Origin: Hyalangium ruber
Lineage (GTDB): Bacteria; Myxococcota; Myxococcia; Myxococcales; Myxococcaceae
Reading direction: 5' to 3'
NCBI RefSeq assembly: GCF_034259325.1
Contig: NZ_JAXIVS010000004.1
Location: 310,001-374,000 of the forward strand
Length of the DNA stretch: 64,000 bases
The translations under genes and the position numbers were made by a program. The first letter of the stretch is position 1; each line of letters opens with the position of its first letter. Shown here in pieces: positions 4,918 through 14,019 of this stretch. Below the pieces are notes generated by a model. That model did no database searches. It worked only from the letters and a program-made list of their open reading frames with translations, and had not been told where the DNA came from.

Positions 4918-5166
4918 TCAGCGCCGGTCCCGCTGGAGATCCGAGAGGATCTTCTTCAGGTACCAGGTCTCCTCCTGGCCGGGGAACCGCTCCTTGAGCG
5001 CCATCACGTGCCGCGCGAGCGACTCCTCGGCCTGGACTCGGGGCAGGGGCGTGTTTCGGAACCAGGCGCGCCGCAGCCGCTGGGCCTCACTGCCTCGGAG
5101 CACCAGCCCCACGACGACCGCGAACCCGACCAACCCCAGGATGATGAGCGCCGTACTGCCGTCCAC
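4918..5166 (-). CDS. Small single-pass membrane protein, downstream of retron RT
   Basis: 82-residue protein. Residues 5-25 form one strongly hydrophobic helix (ALIILGLVGFAVVVGLVL), followed by a positively charged stop-transfer (RRAW) and about 55 polar residues that should lie in the cytoplasm. No known family is recognised. It is on the same strand as the retron reverse transcriptase and starts 66 bp after its stop codon. Several retron systems pair the RT and msDNA with a small membrane-spanning effector, so an effector role is an inference from position and topology only. It could equally be an unrelated conserved small membrane protein. Confidence 0.6.
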   Translation of the reverse strand: MDGSTALIILGLVGFAVVVGLVLRGSEAQRLRRAWFRNTPLPRVQAEESLARHVMALKERFPGQEETWYLKKILSDLQRDRR

Positions 5167-5232: not shown

Positions 5233-6798
5233 TCAGTACAGCTTCCACCACTTCTTCTTCGGGGGATCCTCGGGCTTCGGAGGCTCCTCCGTGGGAGCCG
5301 GACCGCTGGCAGCCGGAGGGGCAACGGGAGCGGCGACGGTTCCAGGCTTCGGAGCCGCCGCGCCCGGCTTGCGCCAAGGCAGCTCCACCGGCTTGCGCCC
5401 ATGCTTCCGCTCCAGCGCCCGGGCCTTCTCCTGGAACACCTTGCCCTTGGCCGGGTCCACCATGGCCACGTAGTGGGCGAAGCCCACCGCGGACGCAATC
5501 ACGTCCGTTGAGCCATTCCACTGCTTGCCCTCGGGCCCGCTCTTCTCGAGCTGGTGCAGCAGGGCCCGGAAGCGCCGCAGCGTCTCGCGGTCCACGCCGG
5601 GCTTGTCGTTGACGACGACGCCCGTCACCTCCTGCTGCCCGCCCCGCCGCAGCACCCGCGTCTTGTCCGGGTGCGGAGCGAAGTCCTCCTTGCGGATGAC
5701 GAAGCGCGCCAGCCGCAACATCTTCCCCACGTCCCCACCGCCCGAGCGGGGCGCGGAGAACGTCAGGTCATCCGCGTAGCGCGTATACGTGAAGCCCAGC
5801 TTGCGCGCCGCGCCCTGCAGCCGTCGGTCGAGCCTGAGGCACAACAGGTTCGTCAGCGCCGGAGAGGTGGGAGCGCCCTGCGGCAGCCGCCGCCCGCCCT
5901 GCGCCACGAAGTAGCGCTGTCCGTCCAGCTCCACCTCCTCCACGTCCGGCTCGGTACACAGCAGCGCCAGCGCCGTGGCCGTCGCCTCGCTGTAGCCCAG
6001 CTTCACGAAGAAGCCCTTCACCCGGGGGTAGCGCACCGTGGGGAAGAAGTCCTTCAGGTCCAGGTTCACCACCACGGATGCGCCCACGTGCGGCCGCGCG
6101 TTGCTGACGATGGAGCGCCCCGGACGAAACCCGTGCGCCGCCTCGTGCATGGGCAGCTTCTCCAGCACGTTCTCCAGCACCCAGTGCTGCGCCGCCTTCA
6201 GCCGGGGCCGGGGCGCGGAGATGAGCCGCAGGCCGCCCGTCTTCTTCGGCAGCGCGAAGCGCACGTAGTTCGTCCGCGTGGCCACCTGACGCGCGTAGCA
6301 CAGCCCTCGCAGCTGCCCCACCGTGAGCCCCAGCGCCTGCGCCAGCGCCTCCGGCGTCTCCAGCTTCGGCAGCCCCTGGCGCTCCAGCTTCGTCGCGTCC
6401 GGGGTGCGCTGGCTCAGGCCTCCCGACACCCCGCGCCCGAGGAAGAGGATCTCCTTGGCCTTGCGCGCCTTCCACGCCTCGGCCCGCGCCACCCGCTCGC
6501 GCTCGCGCCGCTCCTTCGTCTCCTTCTGCTTGCGCTTGCTCTCGGCCAGCCGCTTCTTGCGCAGCTCCTTCTTCAGCCGCTCCAGGTTGCCCAGCCGGCT
6601 CGCCTCGCCCGTGAGCGCGCGAATCTGCCGCTCGAGCTCCGCCTTGCGGTGGACCTCGTCCCGAGGGTCTCCAGGCGCGCCGCTGCGCGCGGGCCAGAAG
6701 CCCAGCCGCACCATCTCCTCGAGGATGACCTCATCCTTCGAGCTGTGCTGGATGCGCTCGTACAGCTCCTGCCGATTCCGAGGGGGTTGTTGGGCCAT
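5233..6798 (-). CDS. ret: Retron reverse transcriptase (Mx162-type)
   Basis: 521-residue retron RT that would prime from the 2'-OH of a branching G in its own msr RNA and copy the msd region into msDNA. Palm motifs appear in order: NLDLKDFF with Asp247/Asp250 (about 245-252), LPQGAPTSP (305-313), and the catalytic YADD (341-344). Retron-specific features are also present: NAxxH as NARPH (233-237, region X) and VTG (391-393, region Y, which recognises msr). The N terminus has a 170-residue extension containing a highly charged Lys/Arg/Glu coiled coil (about 55-115), as in long myxobacterial RTs. The C terminus is a Pro/Ala/Lys-rich tail ending in KKKWWKLY. ATG 6798 lies 32 bp after the ncRNA gene. 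Confidence 0.95.
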   Translation of the reverse strand: MAQQPPRNRQELYERIQHSSKDEVILEEMVRLGFWPARSGAPGDPRDEVHRKAELERQIRALTGEASRLGNLERLKKELRKKRLAESKRKQKETKERRERERVARAEAWKARKAKEILFLGRGVSGGLSQRTPDATKLERQGLPKLETPEALAQALGLTVGQLRGLCYARQVATRTNYVRFALPKKTGGLRLISAPRPRLKAAQHWVLENVLEKLPMHEAAHGFRPGRSIVSNARPHVGASVVVNLDLKDFFPTVRYPRVKGFFVKLGYSEATATALALLCTEPDVEEVELDGQRYFVAQGGRRLPQGAPTSPALTNLLCLRLDRRLQGAARKLGFTYTRYADDLTFSAPRSGGGDVGKMLRLARFVIRKEDFAPHPDKTRVLRRGGQQEVTGVVVNDKPGVDRETLRRFRALLHQLEKSGPEGKQWNGSTDVIASAVGFAHYVAMVDPAKGKVFQEKARALERKHGRKPVELPWRKPGAAAPKPGTVAAPVAPPAASGPAPTEEPPKPEDPPKKKWWKLY

Positions 6799-6830
6799 TT
6801 CGCTCTCATGAAGAGAGAGGAGGGTCCGTC

Positions 6831-6842
6831 CACGCGGCGGTC
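6831..6842 (-). repeat. Retron a2 inverted repeat
   Basis: Plus-strand CACGCGGCGGTC, the exact reverse complement of the plus-strand sequence at 7051-7062. It marks the 3' limit of the msr-msd RNA and the 5' end of the msDNA strand. Confidence 0.9.
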
Positions 6843-6890
6843 CGAGAGCACCTTCGTACTGCTCTCAGGACTGGCTCGTCTCGACTCAAG

Positions 6891-6963
6891 CCGTACGCCC
6901 TACCCCGGGGCCTATGGATTCACGGAATCCAAACCGCCATAGCCCTGGGGTAGGGATGTACGG
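6891..6963. repeat. msd long stem (msDNA hairpin)
   Basis: Imperfect inverted repeat whose arms begin CCGTAC and end GTACGG, with G/C-rich middle arms CCCTACCCC and GGGGTAGGG. The apex contains its own perfect 6-bp hairpin (GGATTC/GAATCC, 3-nt loop). This is the characteristic long, mismatched msDNA stem of myxobacterial retrons. Confidence 0.9.
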
Positions 6964-7050
6964 CACAGTCAAGAGCGGGCCAGTGAATCATCACAAGCCA
7001 TCAGGCAAGGACGGCGAAACGCCGCCCGGGTTGCAAGGTACCTGCCCTCT

Positions 7051-7062
7051 GACCGCCGCGTG
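7051..7062 (-). repeat. Retron a1 inverted repeat
   Basis: Plus-strand GACCGCCGCGTG, pairing perfectly with the a2 copy at 6831-6842. It marks the 5' end of the msr RNA. It sits only 18 bp after the stop codon of the SWIM-domain gene, so any dedicated retron promoter must lie inside that gene. Confidence 0.9.
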
Positions 7063-7080
7063 CGCGAACCCTCCCTCCCT

Positions 7081-8727
7081 TCATGTCCGATACGACTTCG
7101 AGTGCTGGAGCCGCAGCGCGAGCAGGTGCTCGCATGGCCCCTTGAACAACTTGTTCTGCTGGAAGAAGTTGCAGGTGCACTCGCCGAAAACCATACGCTG
7201 GTCCGCGTCGAGTCGCAAAGACGGCCGTAGCACCTTGCTCCCCTCTTTCACCGAGCCCGAGAGCTCCAGGGAGCCATCCACATTCGAGGGCCGAGCCTGC
7301 ACCGTCACCGCCCGCTCCGTCAGGAAGCGCGAGGCCTTCTCCTCACGCTCGTTGGAGAAGCGCAGCTTCTCCATGGGCAGGGGCTCGCGGCTCAGCTCGC
7401 GCGCCCGGTACACGTTCTTGTTCAGGTCCCAGATGGCGCGGCCCGCCTGCGTGTAAGCGCCCAGCGCGCCCAGCACCGTGGCCCGGTCGAGCCCCAGCCG
7501 CGCCGCCAGCGCCTCCGGCGTCTCGCGCCAGTTCTCCTTGAGCGCATCGAAGACACGGCGGCGGGTGAACTCGTCCACCTCCGTGCGCGGCGCCATCAGG
7601 TCGAAGTTGCCCGAGGTGGACCAGTCATTGGCCGTCCACCCCGACAGCCCCAGGGTGAAGGACAGGTCTCCGAGGTCCGCCACATAGAAGGAGGGCATGC
7701 CGCTGCCCAGCAGGTGAACGGTGAAGCTGCGCGCCACGGGCAGGAGCCGCTCCAGGATGAGGAGCCGCCGCCGGCCCCACACGCGGATGTCGTGCGTGCC
7801 CTCGCCCTGGAAGATGGAGCGGGGGCACGTCACCTCCAGGTTCCACGGCTCGAACACCACCTTCACCGGCTGCCCCGGCGTGAGCCGGTAGCGCATGGAG
7901 CGAGGCCCCTGCTTCTCCTTCCGCCGCTTGAGGACGAAGAGGAAGTTATGCACGTCCATGGGGTGCAACACCACGCGCGTGGCCTGCAGGCTCATGGCCG
8001 AGTTCACCTGCAGGAACCCGCGCACCCACGAGTCCGGCAGGTCGATCTTCACTTCCTTGTAGGCCTCGTCCACGCCCGTCTGCGTGGTGAAGCCCGTGGG
8101 GTCCACCTCGAAGCGCGTCGTCTTGTACGAGCGAATCTTCTGGAACTCGTCGTACAGCACCGAGGAGTAGTCCACGTTGGTGGTGCCGCAGGAGAACTCG
8201 CCGATGTTCTGGAAGACCTCGTAGCTGGCGCCCAGCCGGCCGTAGCTGGACTCGTCCTGGCTGAAGCACTCGAAGAAGGCCTCGTCCGGGTGGACGGTGA
8301 CGACGGGGTCGAACACGAACCAGAAGTCGCGGTTCTTCTCGTAGAGGTAGTTGAAGTAGCGCTGGCGCGCCTGCATGAAGGGGCGCATGCGCGAGACGCT
8401 CTGCCGCTCCAGCTCCGCCAGCTCCTCGCGCAGGGATTTGATCTGACGGACGACGCCCTGGCGCTGGGCCATGATGGTGTCCAGGTCCGCCTCTTCCTGC
8501 TTGGCGGCCCAGGCCTTGTAGGCCGTCTTGTCCTTGGGCTTGAAGCGCAGGTCCGACACCACCACGCTGTGCAGCGCGGAGATGGCCTCGCGGAAGGCCA
8601 CGTTCTGCCGCAGCTCGCCGGAGAAGAACGTGGGCGGACGCTTGGTGTCCGGAGAGAAGGACAGCTCGGTGCGGTCGCCCCGGTTCTCGACGGAAGAGCT
8701 ACCCCGGTAGGCGTACTCAAACTCCAC
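7081..8727 (-). CDS. SWIM zinc-finger protein
   Basis: 548-residue cytosolic protein. The C terminus carries a SWIM zinc finger, C-x-C...C-x-H, with ligands Cys517, Cys519, Cys532 and His534; SWIM fingers bind DNA or proteins. Before it, around residues 380-430, is a stretch resembling a winged-helix or HTH segment (ETPEALAARLGLDRATVLGAL). Residues about 75-120 are coiled coil. The N-terminal 350 residues are not recognised. It overlaps the preceding WGR/HEAT gene by 11 bp, so the two are translationally coupled, and it ends just before the retron RNA. Together with two WGR proteins upstream it suggests a nucleic-acid-associated complex. Confidence 0.8.
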   Translation of the reverse strand: MEFEYAYRGSSSVENRGDRTELSFSPDTKRPPTFFSGELRQNVAFREAISALHSVVVSDLRFKPKDKTAYKAWAAKQEEADLDTIMAQRQGVVRQIKSLREELAELERQSVSRMRPFMQARQRYFNYLYEKNRDFWFVFDPVVTVHPDEAFFECFSQDESSYGRLGASYEVFQNIGEFSCGTTNVDYSSVLYDEFQKIRSYKTTRFEVDPTGFTTQTGVDEAYKEVKIDLPDSWVRGFLQVNSAMSLQATRVVLHPMDVHNFLFVLKRRKEKQGPRSMRYRLTPGQPVKVVFEPWNLEVTCPRSIFQGEGTHDIRVWGRRRLLILERLLPVARSFTVHLLGSGMPSFYVADLGDLSFTLGLSGWTANDWSTSGNFDLMAPRTEVDEFTRRRVFDALKENWRETPEALAARLGLDRATVLGALGAYTQAGRAIWDLNKNVYRARELSREPLPMEKLRFSNEREEKASRFLTERAVTVQARPSNVDGSLELSGSVKEGSKVLRPSLRLDADQRMVFGECTCNFFQQNKLFKGPCEHLLALRLQHSKSYRT

Positions 8728-11700
8728 GGCGGACCTCCACCGGCTTGACGCGCACGGGAAGCGGAATGGCGGGCTGTGCCTTGCCGATGGCGAGCATGGC
8801 CTCCAGCGCCGCGGCGCGGTTCTCTATAGCAATCGTCGCTGACAAGCGGTGCAGCACATCCATGGCGTGACGGCCCGCCACCTCGTTGCGCAGGCCCTCG
8901 CGCCGCAGGAACTCCAGCACGCGGCCGCGCGCGGCGCGCCCCTTGTTCACCTGGCTGAGCACGCGGACGAAGTACGGCACCAGCTTCTCCACCAGGGGCA
9001 TGTTGCCGGTGGCGAAGCGCTCCAGGTAGTGCGTGGCGAAGAGCTGCACCGGCGGCGCGGGGTGCTCGGACAGGCGCAAGAGCAGCTCCGGTCCGTCCGC
9101 CTCGCGGAAGGAGCGCGCCAGCAGCTCCCGCCCGAACGTCTGCACGTCCGGACGCACGCTGTCCGCCACGGAGACAAGCACCTCCAGGGTGTAGTCCTCG
9201 GGAGCGAAGCGCTCGCGGAAGTAGCGGAAGGCGAAGGCCCGCGCATCCTCCCAGCGCGTGTCCAGCAGCCGCACCGCCGTGGCCAGGTCCGCGCGTACCT
9301 GGGGCACATGTGCCTCCAGCCAGCGCCAGGTCCACTCGCGCACGCGCAGCACGTCATGGCCCGCCAGCTTCACCGCGCGCGCGACATCGACGGTCAGCTC
9401 GTTGGCACGGCGCTCGAGCAGCTCCGCGCCCAGCCCCTGCGCCGCGGAGTCCTCCGACTCCAAGAGCCGCCACACCGTCTCGACGGACACGGCCCGGAAC
9501 GCGGCGGACAGCTCGCCGCCGAGGAGCGCCGCCACATGCTCCGGCACGCCCTCGGGCAGCCGCCGACGCAGCAGCGCCGCCACGAGGGTCTCCACCACCC
9601 GCGCGCCCGCATCCACATCCAAGGCCACCAGCCGCGAGAGCAAGGACCGGATGCCTTGGCGCACATCCGGATGGGGACTGGAGGCCAGCCGCCCGAGCAC
9701 CGCCTCGTTCGCGCGGAAAGCGTCGTCCGGCATCTTCCCCAGCAGGCGCAGGCCGAGGGTGCGCAGCGAGGCGCTCCCGGACTGGAGCAACTGGTTGAGC
9801 ACCTCGGGAGGCACCGGCTCGGCGCGCAGGTCGCGCCGCAAGAGCAGCTCGCCGCCCAGCTCCTGAATCTCGACGAGCGGGTGGGCCAGCAGCTCGAGGA
9901 TGATCTCAGCGCCCGGCGGCCGGGCCAGGGGGCCAAGCGCGGCGAGCACCATCTGCTTCACATCCGCGGCCAGTGGGCCATCGTTCGGGCCCAGCTTGCG
10001 CGCCGCCTGGAGCAGGTGGCGGATGAACGCCTCCGCCACGGCGTCCGAGAGGACCGAGCCGCGCAGCAGGCTGGCCACGTACTGGCGTGTCTCCGTCTGG
10101 GGCGAGATGGCCAGCGCGGCGAGGAAGGACAGGTCCTTCAGCAGCACGTCCCGCAGCGCGTCCAGCCACCGGAAGGCCTGGCGGCGAGCCGGCTCGTACG
10201 AAGAACCGGCGGCGGCGAGCACCAGCGCCCGGGGCTCTCCCCGCGCGTTCACCCGCGCCACGGCCAGCTCCAGGCCGAGCTGCGCGGTGGGCGCGTAGGG
10301 GCGCTCCAGCATCATCACCACCGCGTCCGTGTCGAGCTGAGCGAGGAAGTCCCGCTGGTCGCGCAGCGCGCGCGCGGCGAAGGCATGCACGGGCGCGCAG
10401 CGGCTCTCATCCACCAGGTGCATGAGCCCCTGCGGCGTGCGGTCCCACAGCGTGGGGAAGCTCTCCTCGCGCCCCAGCGCGCCCGCCTCCGGGCGCCTCG
10501 TGTAGAACTCGAGCCGCTGGTCCACGGCCACGTAGCGCCCGCCTGGCTCCATGCGGTGCAGCACGTGGTTGAAGGCCCAGTAGGGGTGGAAGGCATCCCA
10601 GTGCAGCTCATAGCGACCGCGACCGATACCTCGGGTCGTGGTGCGCGGCGCCACCGCGTCCGCGTCGGTGAAGGGCAGCAGCACGCCCACCGCCATCCGC
10701 ACGTAGTCCGGGTCCTCGAGCTCGCCCAGCCGCCGCAGCGTGCGCCACGCGCGGCGCCGCAGGAAGATCCGCGTGGCCCGGGTGTAGCCATCGCGGGGGC
10801 TGCGGCTGGTGGAGCGCTCCTTCTCGTACCGCCAGGCGATGAGGCCGAACACCTCGCCATCGCGGCGGTACTCGGCCATCTTGAAGACGTAGCGCAGCGC
10901 CTTCACCGCACCGCGCTGGAGAGGAGCTGTCCGCAGCACGCGCAGCAGCGAGGGCCGCACTGCCTCCGAGTCCACCAGGTACACCAGCTCCAGCACCGCG
11001 TACGCGTCCTTGCCGCCCGAGGCCAGGTGCGCATCCAGCGCCTTGCCAAAGGCCTCCGCGTTGCCAGCCAGCGCCGCGTCCCGGAGCGCCGGAGGCAACT
11101 TGCCCATCAAGTCCTGGCGGAACTCGCGGCGGGTGGACTCGTCGGAGAGCTGAAGCAAGGCCTCGGTGGCCATGCGCCGCACCATGTCCGGCGTGCCCGG
11201 GTCACCATAGAGCCGCCCAAGCGCGGTCACGGAAGCGTGCGAGCCCAGGCGCCCGAGCGCCGCGGCGACGCAGTAGGCACGAAGCGGCGTGGCCCGCTCC
11301 AGCATGGGCAGGAGGATGGGTTCCGCGGCGCGCAGGCGCAGCTCCCCCACGCGCCAGATGACGCGCTCCAGGGGCCGAGGTTGAGCCCTGACCTCGGAAC
11401 TGCGGAACCAGCGGCGGGTGCTGACCTCCTGCGTGAGCTGCTGGAGCAGGATGCGCTCGCGGGCGGAGGCCCCAGGAGGCGCGGACGGTGCCACCGGGGC
11501 CGCGGGCGGAGCCGCCGTCGCCGTCGGTCCGGGCACCGGAGCCCGAGGTGGCGCGGGAGGCAGCCCCGTGGAGGGGTGCCCGGCGCGCACGTAGCCGGTC
11601 TCCAGCTTGGACTCGACGAGCTTGTCGAAGGCCCGGCGCGCCTCCGCCATGGACACGGGCGCGGGCGTCTTGGTGCCATCCTTGAGGGCGGTGCCACGCC

Positions 11701-11818
11701 GGCCGTAGCGGAAGTTGACGACGTACTGGCCCGCCCCCACCTCGAGCAGGTCCACCTCATACACCTTGTCGCTCTTCCCCTCCTGGAAGAGGAGGGTGAC
11801 CTGTTCGAGGAGCTTCAC
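8717..11818 (-). CDS. WGR-domain protein with HEAT-like repeats
   Basis: 1033-residue cytosolic protein. Residues 1-80 form a WGR domain, with the signature appearing as RYGRRG; WGR domains in poly(ADP-ribose) polymerases and bacterial MolR-type proteins contact nucleic acid. A Pro/Ala linker (about 85-125) leads into a long alpha-helical array of HEAT-like repeats, for example the repeated pattern of LL..L..S...VR..G..LL. Helical repeats usually form protein- or nucleic-acid-binding scaffolds; no enzymatic motif is visible. Start codon is GTG, one nucleotide after the upstream gene's TGA (TGACGTG), indicating tight translational coupling. Confidence 0.8.
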   Translation of the reverse strand: MKLLEQVTLLFQEGKSDKVYEVDLLEVGAGQYVVNFRYGRRGTALKDGTKTPAPVSMAEARRAFDKLVESKLETGYVRAGHPSTGLPPAPPRAPVPGPTATAAPPAAPVAPSAPPGASARERILLQQLTQEVSTRRWFRSSEVRAQPRPLERVIWRVGELRLRAAEPILLPMLERATPLRAYCVAAALGRLGSHASVTALGRLYGDPGTPDMVRRMATEALLQLSDESTRREFRQDLMGKLPPALRDAALAGNAEAFGKALDAHLASGGKDAYAVLELVYLVDSEAVRPSLLRVLRTAPLQRGAVKALRYVFKMAEYRRDGEVFGLIAWRYEKERSTSRSPRDGYTRATRIFLRRRAWRTLRRLGELEDPDYVRMAVGVLLPFTDADAVAPRTTTRGIGRGRYELHWDAFHPYWAFNHVLHRMEPGGRYVAVDQRLEFYTRRPEAGALGREESFPTLWDRTPQGLMHLVDESRCAPVHAFAARALRDQRDFLAQLDTDAVVMMLERPYAPTAQLGLELAVARVNARGEPRALVLAAAGSSYEPARRQAFRWLDALRDVLLKDLSFLAALAISPQTETRQYVASLLRGSVLSDAVAEAFIRHLLQAARKLGPNDGPLAADVKQMVLAALGPLARPPGAEIILELLAHPLVEIQELGGELLLRRDLRAEPVPPEVLNQLLQSGSASLRTLGLRLLGKMPDDAFRANEAVLGRLASSPHPDVRQGIRSLLSRLVALDVDAGARVVETLVAALLRRRLPEGVPEHVAALLGGELSAAFRAVSVETVWRLLESEDSAAQGLGAELLERRANELTVDVARAVKLAGHDVLRVREWTWRWLEAHVPQVRADLATAVRLLDTRWEDARAFAFRYFRERFAPEDYTLEVLVSVADSVRPDVQTFGRELLARSFREADGPELLLRLSEHPAPPVQLFATHYLERFATGNMPLVEKLVPYFVRVLSQVNKGRAARGRVLEFLRREGLRNEVAGRHAMDVLHRLSATIAIENRAAALEAMLAIGKAQPAIPLPVRVKPVEVRRGV

Positions 11819-11819
11819 G

Positions 11820-13244
11820 TCAGTTCACCAGCTTCTTGATGTCGCCGTAGGCCCGGTAGAAGCCGCCACGCGCGGACTCGCGCACGCCCTCGACCACGTA
11901 GCGGGCGCCAGCCTCGCGGATGTCCTTGGGGAACTGCACGTGCCAGTCCTTCTTGTAGCCCTGGGACACCACGCGTACGCGCACGTGGCCGCCGTCCTCG
12001 TAGCACTCGACCACCACGCCCGAGCCCGCGCTGCGCGTGGTCTCCACGGTGCCCACCTGCGCGGCCGCCATCGGCTTGGGCGCCTTGACGGTGACCGTCT
12101 TCGGCACGGTGCCCTTCTGCGCGGCCTGGATGGCGGCCTCGCTCGCGTCGATGCAGGCCAGCGAGCCGTCGGTGGTGACGATGTAGAGCCGGTCCTTGAA
12201 GAACTGCATCGAGAACGCAGAGCCGCAGCCGGTGGACAGCTTCCACAGCCGCTCGCCCTTGTCGTTGAAGCAGTACACGCTGGACATGTTGTCGCCAGCG
12301 AAGACGTACTTGCCGTCCTCCACCGCGGCGCAGGAGAACGCCGCCGCGTCGCACTTCATCACCGGGCCCTCGCCGCCCTTCTTGGTGAAGCGGTGGACGT
12401 AGCCGGTGTTGGTGCAGGCGTAGACGCTGGACTCCTCCTGCCAGCCGAACATCACGTGGCCCTTGGTGGGCTTGGACCAGATCTCCCGGCCGTCCTCCCA
12501 GTCGTACATGGTCACGCCCTTGGCGTGGCCGTGGTACATGCCCACCTCGTCACAGCGCACCATCCACGCGTGGGTGCCCTGGCTCTGGCGCGTCCACTGC
12601 GACTCGTCCTCGTGGTTGATGGCGGTGAGCTTGCCGTTGGCGTCGGAGACGCCGAGCACGGCGTCCTTGATGTCCAGCCAGAAGATGTCCACGTCCTCGG
12701 CGATCTCGTACGCCTTGCGCGGCACCTTGCCACCCAGGTCATACACGTTGCCGTCGTCGCACCCGGCGTAGAGCCAGCGATCATCGGCGACGATGCACTT
12801 GACGCCCTCGGGCAGGCGGAACTGGTTGAGCACCTTGCCGTCATGGCTGAGCGAGTAGATGTGGCCGCTCTCGTTGCCAACCCAGCAGCGCGCATCATCC
12901 ACGAAGACGCCGAAGGTGCGGTCGCCCGTGTTGAACTTCCAGAGGATGGGGGCCTGGGTGGCGGAGGAGGTGCCGCTGGTGATTTCGCGGCGGGTGACGG
13001 AGCGCTTCTTGCGCATGCCCATGACGGCGGGCGCGTAGCCCTTCTTCGTCTTCTCGGCGATCTTCTTCTGGGCCTCGGCGAGGGCCTTGTCGGCGCTGGG
13101 GAAGTCGGTGACCTTGAGCTGGCCTCCGTCCCCGATGCGGCCGTAGCGGATGGAGAGCTTCTTTCCCTCCACCTTCACTTCGTAGAACTTGTGCGAGCTA
13201 CCGCCGTCTTCCGAAAGCTCCAGGTACGTCAACTGATCGGCCAT
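11820..13244 (-). CDS. WGR-domain protein with beta-propeller
   Basis: 474-residue cytosolic protein and first gene of the WGR/SWIM operon. An N-terminal WGR domain (about 1-75, motif RYGRIG) is followed by a basic linker, then repeated blades of a PQQ/WD-like propeller (about 100-370; recurring pattern of ILW, VFVDD, CWVGNESGHIYSL, LYAGCDDGNVYDL). The last 70 residues form a small beta-rich domain (VVVECYEDGGHVRVRVVS...). There is no signal peptide, so this is not a periplasmic dehydrogenase. The WGR domain shared with the next gene argues for a common partner. Its promoter should lie in 13245-13416, downstream of clpP. Confidence 0.8.
   Translation of the reverse strand: MADQLTYLELSEDGGSSHKFYEVKVEGKKLSIRYGRIGDGGQLKVTDFPSADKALAEAQKKIAEKTKKGYAPAVMGMRKKRSVTRREITSGTSSATQAPILWKFNTGDRTFGVFVDDARCWVGNESGHIYSLSHDGKVLNQFRLPEGVKCIVADDRWLYAGCDDGNVYDLGGKVPRKAYEIAEDVDIFWLDIKDAVLGVSDANGKLTAINHEDESQWTRQSQGTHAWMVRCDEVGMYHGHAKGVTMYDWEDGREIWSKPTKGHVMFGWQEESSVYACTNTGYVHRFTKKGGEGPVMKCDAAAFSCAAVEDGKYVFAGDNMSSVYCFNDKGERLWKLSTGCGSAFSMQFFKDRLYIVTTDGSLACIDASEAAIQAAQKGTVPKTVTVKAPKPMAAAQVGTVETTRSAGSGVVVECYEDGGHVRVRVVSQGYKKDWHVQFPKDIREAGARYVVEGVRESARGGFYRAYGDIKKLVN

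Positions 13245-13416: not shown

Positions 13417-14019
<603 letters not shown>

Follow-up and report, generated by a model that had tools for sequence, protein, structure and literature searches.

The window, by which the whole stretch of 64,000 nucleotides analysed here is meant (Hyalangium ruber, contig NZ_JAXIVS010000004.1, positions 310,001 to 374,000), carries a minus-strand operon that extends from 13244 to 5233 and contains, in the order of transcription, a WGR-propeller gene, a WGR-HEAT gene, a SWIM gene, a retron noncoding RNA (ncRNA) and a reverse transcriptase (RT) gene. The WGR-propeller and WGR-HEAT genes lie 1 base apart, the WGR-HEAT and SWIM genes overlap by 11 nt and the a1 arm of the ncRNA starts 6 nt past the SWIM stop codon. 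The features, with their basis in parentheses, are as follows.

11820-13244, minus strand: fourth gene, a 474-residue protein with a WGR domain and a PQQ beta-propeller (open reading frame, no PADLOC match)
8717-11818, minus strand: 1033-residue protein with a WGR domain and a HEAT alpha-solenoid (open reading frame, PADLOC WGR_XIII at 1126 bits, model)
7081-8727, minus strand: SWIM_XIII partner, 548 residues (open reading frame, PADLOC at 783 bits)
7630-8628, minus strand: SWIM residues 34-366, predicted PCNA-like sliding-clamp fold with a helical insertion (AlphaFold model, fold searches)
7402-7572, minus strand: SWIM residues 386-442, a winged-helix-like region (secondary structure of the model, weak Pfam helix-turn-helix matches)
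7114-7206, minus strand: SWIM zinc finger, CxC..CxH (present in 40/40 aligned rows)
6819-7074, minus strand: retron ncRNA, a1-msr-msd-a2, assigned to type XIII (arms, fold, homologues, covariance model)
7043-7074, minus strand: a1 arm, 32 nt, perfect core 7051-7062 (inverted repeat)
7041-7042, minus strand: candidate priming (branching) G, proposed from its position next to the inner a1 end; in most relatives a G precedes CCUUGC (PMC6868368)
7035-7038, minus strand: CCUU, predicted partner of AAGG at 6851-6854 in an extension of the a1/a2 stem (helix 1, 95.2% of cells paired)
7009-7027, minus strand: msr hairpin, 8 bp (helix 2, 99.6% of cells paired)
6870-6984, minus strand: msd stem-loop including the conserved base helix (helices 4-8)
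6890-6964, minus strand: msd palindrome, 75 nt, varying in sequence with pairing retained (alignment and inspection)
6819-6850, minus strand: a2 arm, 32 nt, perfect core 6831-6842 (inverted repeat)
5233-6798, minus strand: RT, 521 residues (open reading frame, PADLOC RT_XIII at 625 bits)
5236-5259, minus strand: C-terminal tail of the RT, KKKWWKLY, behind a low-complexity linker (sequence)

On the minus strand, the a1 core CACGCGGCGGTC and the a2 core GACCGCCGCGTG form the perfect 12-bp repeat that an initial annotation of this DNA had described. The arms around them are 84% complementary and spaced 192 nt apart, and because the perfect 12 bp are only the core of these longer arms the element spans 6819-7074 rather than the 6831-7062 first proposed. 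The view that this is an intact retron RNA gene has held: the minus-strand RNA of 6815-7080, for which folding had been recommended, reaches -163.8 kcal/mol (z -9.24), a value equalled by 0/200 dinucleotide shuffles, the arms and the msr and msd hairpins are present, and the pairing is kept in relatives. As DNA, the plus strand of 6860-7000 (the sense of the msDNA) also folds better than its shuffles (z -7.14; 0/200 equal). The msr hairpin was found as announced, and so was the msd palindrome, although it measures 75 nt and not 73. The RNA gene directly precedes an RT with the three motifs that had been named, NAxxH, YADD and VTG (NARPH at residue 233, YADD at 341, VTG at 391), and the best matches of this RT among PDB sequences are retron RTs. 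An a1/a2 inverted repeat that encloses msr and msd hairpins thus adjoins an RT gene, as in a retron. From the geometry of Mx162 (PMC6868368), the msDNA would plausibly measure about 150-160 nt. At gathering score, no Rfam family matches anywhere in the window; an Rfam family for the region was also sought at E up to 5, with one chance-level match as the outcome (E 3.8). The Hyalangium ruber genome holds no second copy of the ncRNA, the search at E up to 1 returning 1 match in total.

Within a relatives set of 116 genomes, the ncRNA occurs in 12, the own genome included, which are exactly those with a close RT; two more genomes give borderline matches (E 0.005 and 0.008). Loss of a1/a2 pairing in sister species had been named beforehand as a sign against the element, and the pairing is present in the window and in all 11 close Myxococcaceae homologues. 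For these 12 Myxococcaceae sequences (alignment A1), RNAalifold predicts 90 pairs, 20 of which have two-sided compensating changes. A wider alignment (A2), made from 31 of 37 candidate sequences of several phyla, has a consensus of 42 pairs; in this alignment, which was not fitted to the structure and from which the structure was itself derived, 92.2% of the cells are paired, against 75.0% after shuffling and 36-45% after sliding. Two-sided changes affect 30/42 pairs (shuffled mean 22.8; equalled by 0/500 shuffles), and covariation scores 0.500 compared with 0.192 for shuffles, while the number of further pair types, 74, does not exceed that of the shuffles (71.3; 123/500 as high). The most strongly conserved elements are CCUUGC past a1, the msr hairpin, a separate stretch with the consensus CACUGGCCCGCUCUU.ACUGUGC, CCAGUCC, and ACGAAGG ahead of a2. 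One relative, L014, shows the same A-to-T change in the conserved elements GTACC and GTACG (A1 columns 42 and 224, window positions 7039 and 6857), which pairing does not explain.

A scan of named genomes yielded 69 loci with a related RT. Inverted repeats were compared in 66 loci, namely 12 from Myxococcaceae, the window among them, and 54 of the 69 (4 duplicates and 11 without a close upstream SWIM gene were dropped). The best repeat exceeds all 10 of its shuffles in 57/66 loci, and the arm distance falls between 185 and 215 nt, a range chosen after the values were seen, in 55/66 loci as against 84/660 shuffles. The protein-coding genes are constrained as well; relative to the G052 relative, dN/dS is 0.264 for the RT, 0.203 for SWIM, 0.269 for WGR-HEAT and 0.200 for WGR-propeller. 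Since all four ratios lie at 0.20-0.27 and 20/90 pairs of the RNA carry compensating changes, the operon and its RNA appear to be kept by selection. The ncRNA alignment provides a working model for a structure that Rfam missed here, and connects loci in six named phyla.

RT_XIII is the best PADLOC model for the RT, the next model reaching 331 bits, and both SWIM_XIII and WGR_XIII match partner genes of the same operon. The element is almost certainly a type XIII retron, a type assignment that rests on these PADLOC models. In a quick RT tree of 93 rows with a midpoint root, from which the fragmentary or frameshifted L053, L090-L093 and L098 were excluded, the window falls in a fully supported 12-row Myxococcaceae clade inside the larger type XIII set (SH-aLRT 97). 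A covariance model of the msr region (R1), built from 29 sequences, finds 22 of 26 held-out type XIII loci, all of them on the RT strand, at 157-364 nt before the RT match; the test set comprises 26 of the 40 non-duplicate loci outside training (14 left out), and many of its members are near kin of the training sequences. The four loci missed are L053 and L098, whose sequence starts at the RT so that nothing upstream was available, and L048 and L091, in which upstream DNA is present.

WGR domains are known to bind DNA ends in PARPs. The AlphaFold model of the WGR-HEAT protein (mean pLDDT 86.1) consists of a WGR domain and a long alpha-solenoid; a catalytic domain was sought in it and rejected, as the best 50 fold matches listed are large, mostly HEAT-type solenoids at low TM-score. 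Pfam and NCBIfam searches of the partner proteins at E up to 0.01 revealed no enzymatic domain, and nothing in these proteins was identified as a nuclease, NADase or protease domain. The WGR-propeller gene completes the operon in these myxobacteria. In the relatives set it occurs in the same 12 genomes as the close RT and in no others, and 195 genomes of the phylum contain one other, weak homologue (G185, 33%) besides a second copy in G065. Beyond this group it occurs in 9/25 other type XIII genomes, chosen from the 69 loci, and lies next to or near the RT in L039, L055, L056 and L096, in differing positions and orientations. Among 292 cyanobacterial genomes, 9 have a WGR-propeller and 16 have the RT (E at most 1e-60), with 2 in common (G206, the centre of the draw, and G267). 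Its presence elsewhere thus being limited, with an overlap of 2/292 genomes in Cyanobacteria, WGR-propeller was rejected as a universal component and is regarded as an accessory rather than a core protein.

For the SWIM protein of the window, Pfam recognises the SWIM finger and weak helix-turn-helix matches. Its family was aligned in 40 rows, the window included (A4), three of them Mx162-like; the family is strongly conserved, identity to the window being 49-69% for the 32 type XIII rows outside the four nearest and 33-34% for the Mx162-like rows. The AlphaFold model has a mean pLDDT of 77.6 and a pTM of 0.74, with residues 1-16, 19-26, 60-67 and 131-139 below 50. All of the best 50 Foldseek matches listed from the PDB are PCNA or sliding-clamp entries (best E 8.9e-10), and VIA-align superposes residues 34-364 on a PCNA-like clamp with Z 19.5 over 233/244 residues (rmsd 2.8 Å), where the typical best Z without a clear match is 7 to 8. 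Of the best 50 matches listed from a library of viral models, 28 are named PCNA or clamp/beta subunit, the others being mostly unnamed or uncharacterised. Eight positions, K197, R199, K270, R276, R315, R319, R321 and R327, are K or R in 40/40 rows, and we match them to places on or beside the helices that correspond in the model to the DNA-facing ones of PCNA, a matching taken from the order of the elements and not from a displayed alignment. The mean net charges of the four matched helices are -0.5 and 0.8 in the first half and 2.6 and 4.8, clearly basic, in the second.

At the level of sequence, PCNA was considered and rejected. No PCNA or beta-clamp Pfam appears among the best 25 of the 43 families matched by the 40 SWIM members, and a profile search of PDB sequences with the SWIM family gives no PCNA match. 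Pfam PCNA_N (PF00705) is absent from the 6 genomes tested, the own genome among them, and present in 4/14 controls, all archaea. Because the sequence profiles show no match, the protein is called PCNA-like and not PCNA, and the clamp reading rests on one AlphaFold model; on that model, the SWIM protein very probably has a clamp-like fold. By homology, the same fold would be expected in the Mx162-like members of the family. No clamp-loader gene lies in the operon. Among the papers listed by a literature search, we judged none to treat a clamp in a retron, which may nevertheless be in print, and the accessible part of the main text of PMC7159879 contains no mention of clamp, WGR or SWIM.

The C-terminus of the RT is the second feature that bears on how the partners might act. 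Among the 75 type XIII RTs whose C-terminus is complete, 39 end in a Trp-x-hydrophobic-hydrophobic tail (36 with Trp-Trp) and 26 carry a strongly hydrophobic stretch, with both in 0 and neither in 10; the tail pattern was set post hoc, near-identical loci were counted apart and the stretch was defined by a hydropathy cut-off rather than by a trained membrane predictor. The hydrophobic stretch probably spans the membrane. The linkers ahead of the tail vary in length. Judged from the protein sequences, the mutual exclusion of tail and stretch suggests two ways to one job, and the tail might serve either to dock the RT on another protein, the clamp-like partner for instance, or to hold it at the membrane.

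We consider the best explanation overall to be that an intact retron of type XIII sits in an operon of four genes and that its partner proteins act by a clamp-based mechanism, with a probability of about 0.55. How such a mechanism might run is more tentative, and the guard-and-release scheme that follows is less likely than not. The RT would prime from the G beside the a1/a2 stem and would copy the msd, roughly 6851-7006, into branched msDNA of ~150-160 nt, the long hairpin of which would serve as the DNA ligand. RT and msDNA together may keep the clamp-like SWIM protein and the WGR proteins in an inactive complex, tethered via the RT tail. Damage to the msDNA by a phage, or its modification, would free the clamp-like complex, which might then close on replicating DNA and stop both replication and growth. 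As no nuclease, NADase or protease is seen in the partners, a DNA-clamping effector is the simplest effector left.

Polymerases are known to dock on clamps via short C-terminal peptides, and the clamp-like SWIM protein could instead be a processivity or assembly factor for the RT, which would dock by its Trp-rich tail and make msDNA within the complex, any defence being left to another part. The clamp-like fold, the Trp-x-hydrophobic-hydrophobic ends on variable linkers and the closeness of the two genes all agree with such a role. SWIM lies 0-3 kb upstream of the RT in 55 of 65 SWIM places in RT-scanned genomes, counted with the 80 strongest RT rows after weaker rows were dropped; of the other 10 places, six are on contigs without an RT and four are followed by one at 3.9, 4.7, 5.6 and 61 kb. 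However, 25 of the 26 loci whose RT has a hydrophobic stretch instead of the tail also keep the SWIM gene, the tail is missing from Mx162-like RTs (0/15), which do have a SWIM partner, and the 6 cyanobacterial RTs have neither tail nor stretch. We regard this role as unlikely.

Membrane damage has been proposed for retrons with effectors of two transmembrane segments, and the RT tail could be a membrane anchor, interchangeable with a hydrophobic hairpin, in which case the toxic step would be membrane damage. The strict exclusion of tail and hydrophobic stretch is what such interchange would produce, and the tail of the window RT is rich in Lys and Trp. Bacteroidota tails, however, are not basic (e.g. 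GEKPWWDVL, KDEEQWWSLW), so that docking in a pocket fits better than lipid binding, and action of the complex at the membrane through such an anchor seems improbable.

The genes around the operon raise a further alternative, that of a long-resident host cluster with a role outside defence (e.g. in DNA replication stress or development) and no antiphage function. Hyalangium versicolor (L033) and a related MAG (L034) possess several of the genes that flank the operon downstream, two of which recur in Archangium loci, and SWIM has 0 matches in 50,697 phage records and a single 29-residue fragment in viral contigs, as would suit a resident cluster. Against residence, none of these downstream genes has a match in the 7 kb obtained from the G052 relative (L119), the clpP flank is missing from the Archangium loci, and the distribution is patchy, close RT and ncRNA being confined to 12/116 genomes while related RTs with ncRNA recur in six named phyla. 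A resident cluster without antiphage function has a low probability. Finally, decay or chance structure without msDNA is highly improbable in view of the fold (z -9.24), the two-sided changes at 30/42 pairs across phyla, the intact RT motifs and the RT dN/dS of 0.264.

Several observations concern the same flanks. A clpP gene (13417-14019, minus strand) lies 172 nt upstream of WGR-propeller in the same orientation. In G065, the second copy of WGR-propeller (L121) likewise has clpP nearby, and the adjoining frame there is ClpX-like by eye; in the Archangium loci L035, L036 and L120, no clpP match occurs in the fetched flank. Downstream of the RT, an open reading frame of 82 residues (4918-5166, minus strand) without a Pfam match is conserved (84-46%) on the downstream side of the retron in three Archangium loci, in L033 and, 3.4 kb away, in L034, but the 7 kb fetched from G052 contain no match. 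Carriage by a phage or plasmid was considered and rejected; phage records give no SWIM match and 3 plasmid records do, one of which is a 2.8-Mb Methylobacterium replicon (54.7% identity).

The clamp-based reading of the operon may have a wider bearing. It is conceivable, though short of probable, that type XIII retrons, the Mx162-like ones included, are clamp-based systems in which msDNA regulates a PCNA-like clamp that, with WGR solenoid and propeller proteins, stops replication or serves the RT via its Trp-rich tail. The clamp fold predicted for the window member of a SWIM family of 40 aligned proteins, three of them Mx162-like, opens the question of the function of Mx162 msDNA to tests of ring formation, of msDNA holding and of docking by the RT tail. 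The retron belongs to a known type and has an extra gene; its predicted clamp-like partner raises the interest and offers a direct route to testing the role of an old group of bacterial elements that has been puzzling.

Retrons were first found in myxobacteria (PMC6868368, PMC12548924), and the accessible parts of these two papers report no function for Mx162 msDNA. The main texts of PMC12548924, PMC8867640 and PMC8934634, in the parts available, contain neither 'XIII' nor 'SWIM'. Compared with other type XIII retrons, the locus has the same placement of the ncRNA between the SWIM gene and the RT, and 58/69 related loci have SWIM within about 760 nt upstream of the RT; it differs in its fourth gene, with a WGR domain and a beta-propeller, which matches no PADLOC model.

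Mx162 itself has a transcript of 241 nt with a 71-nt msr and a 162-nt msd, and CAGC with its G next to a1 (PMC6868368). Because they share CAGC with a G beside a1, and because their a1-to-a2 geometry fits the figures of PMC6868368, the loci L002/L117, L019-L032, L115 and L116 are called Mx162-like, and we infer from their sequences that they are Mx162-type retrons. The initial annotation had likened the present element to Mx162, a kinship that is not borne out: the 17 Mx162-like rows (15 distinct loci) form a separate side of the RT tree (SH-aLRT 100), apart from L015-L018, which the tree table also labels Mx162-like, and RT identity between the window and Mx162-like loci is about 45-51%. R1 was run on 17 sources, equal to 13 distinct loci (8 Mx162-like, 4 of the neighbouring clade L015-L018 and the C12 retron of the own genome), and this single model finds none of the 8 Mx162-like loci and none of the 5 others, its one match being on the wrong strand (17.5 bits, E 0.14). 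Membership of the Mx162 group was rejected on the separate RT clade, and the R1 ncRNA model gives it no support.

The Mx162-like loci nevertheless share a SWIM partner with the window (L115-L117, at 31-32% identity to the window SWIM), RTs that are best matched by PADLOC RT_XIII (L115, L117), one large HEAT protein that is best matched by HEAT-ARM_XIII, and an ncRNA with long a1/a2 arms of 31-34 nt. They differ in that their HEAT proteins have at least 1899-2012 residues, minima because the frames reach the edge of the fetched DNA, with HEAT repeats and no WGR match in the two tested, and in that their RTs lack the Trp tail; tail and hydrophobic stretch are both absent from the 15 Mx162-like RTs and from 5 other retron RTs. 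Since RT_XIII is the best model for the tested Mx162-like RTs, and SWIM and a large upstream protein occur in L115-L117, the two groups can be seen as distant cousins. The giant proteins ahead of these retrons (L115:45-5750, L116:57-5756, L117:20-6058) are encoded by genes that overlap the SWIM gene by 4 nt. L117 belongs to the own genome, where an Mx162-like RT (G000:C2:892519-893781) is accompanied by a SWIM gene and by a WD40- and HEAT-repeat protein at least 2012 residues in length, the first part of which matches WD40 repeats. A further RT of this genome (G000:C12:248841-249806, L118) lies beside a 959-residue HEAT protein without a SWIM match, and the L117 and L118 RTs both score best with RT_XIII.

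With PCNA and the beta clamps, the SWIM protein shares a two-domain clamp fold, in the predicted structure only; it differs from them in sequence (6-15% identity in the matches listed) and in having an insertion after the first helix, followed by a winged helix and a zinc finger. More distant SWIM proteins are found on Diaphorobacter and Asticcacaulis plasmids (L169, L170), one pair lying beside a site-specific integrase. As in the window, these proteins match SWIM_XIII (176 and 169 bits) and are followed by large proteins, here of the DUF6493 family and one with HEAT repeats, but no RT is annotated within 8 kb on either side; the pairing of SWIM with a solenoid protein may therefore be older than its link to retrons.
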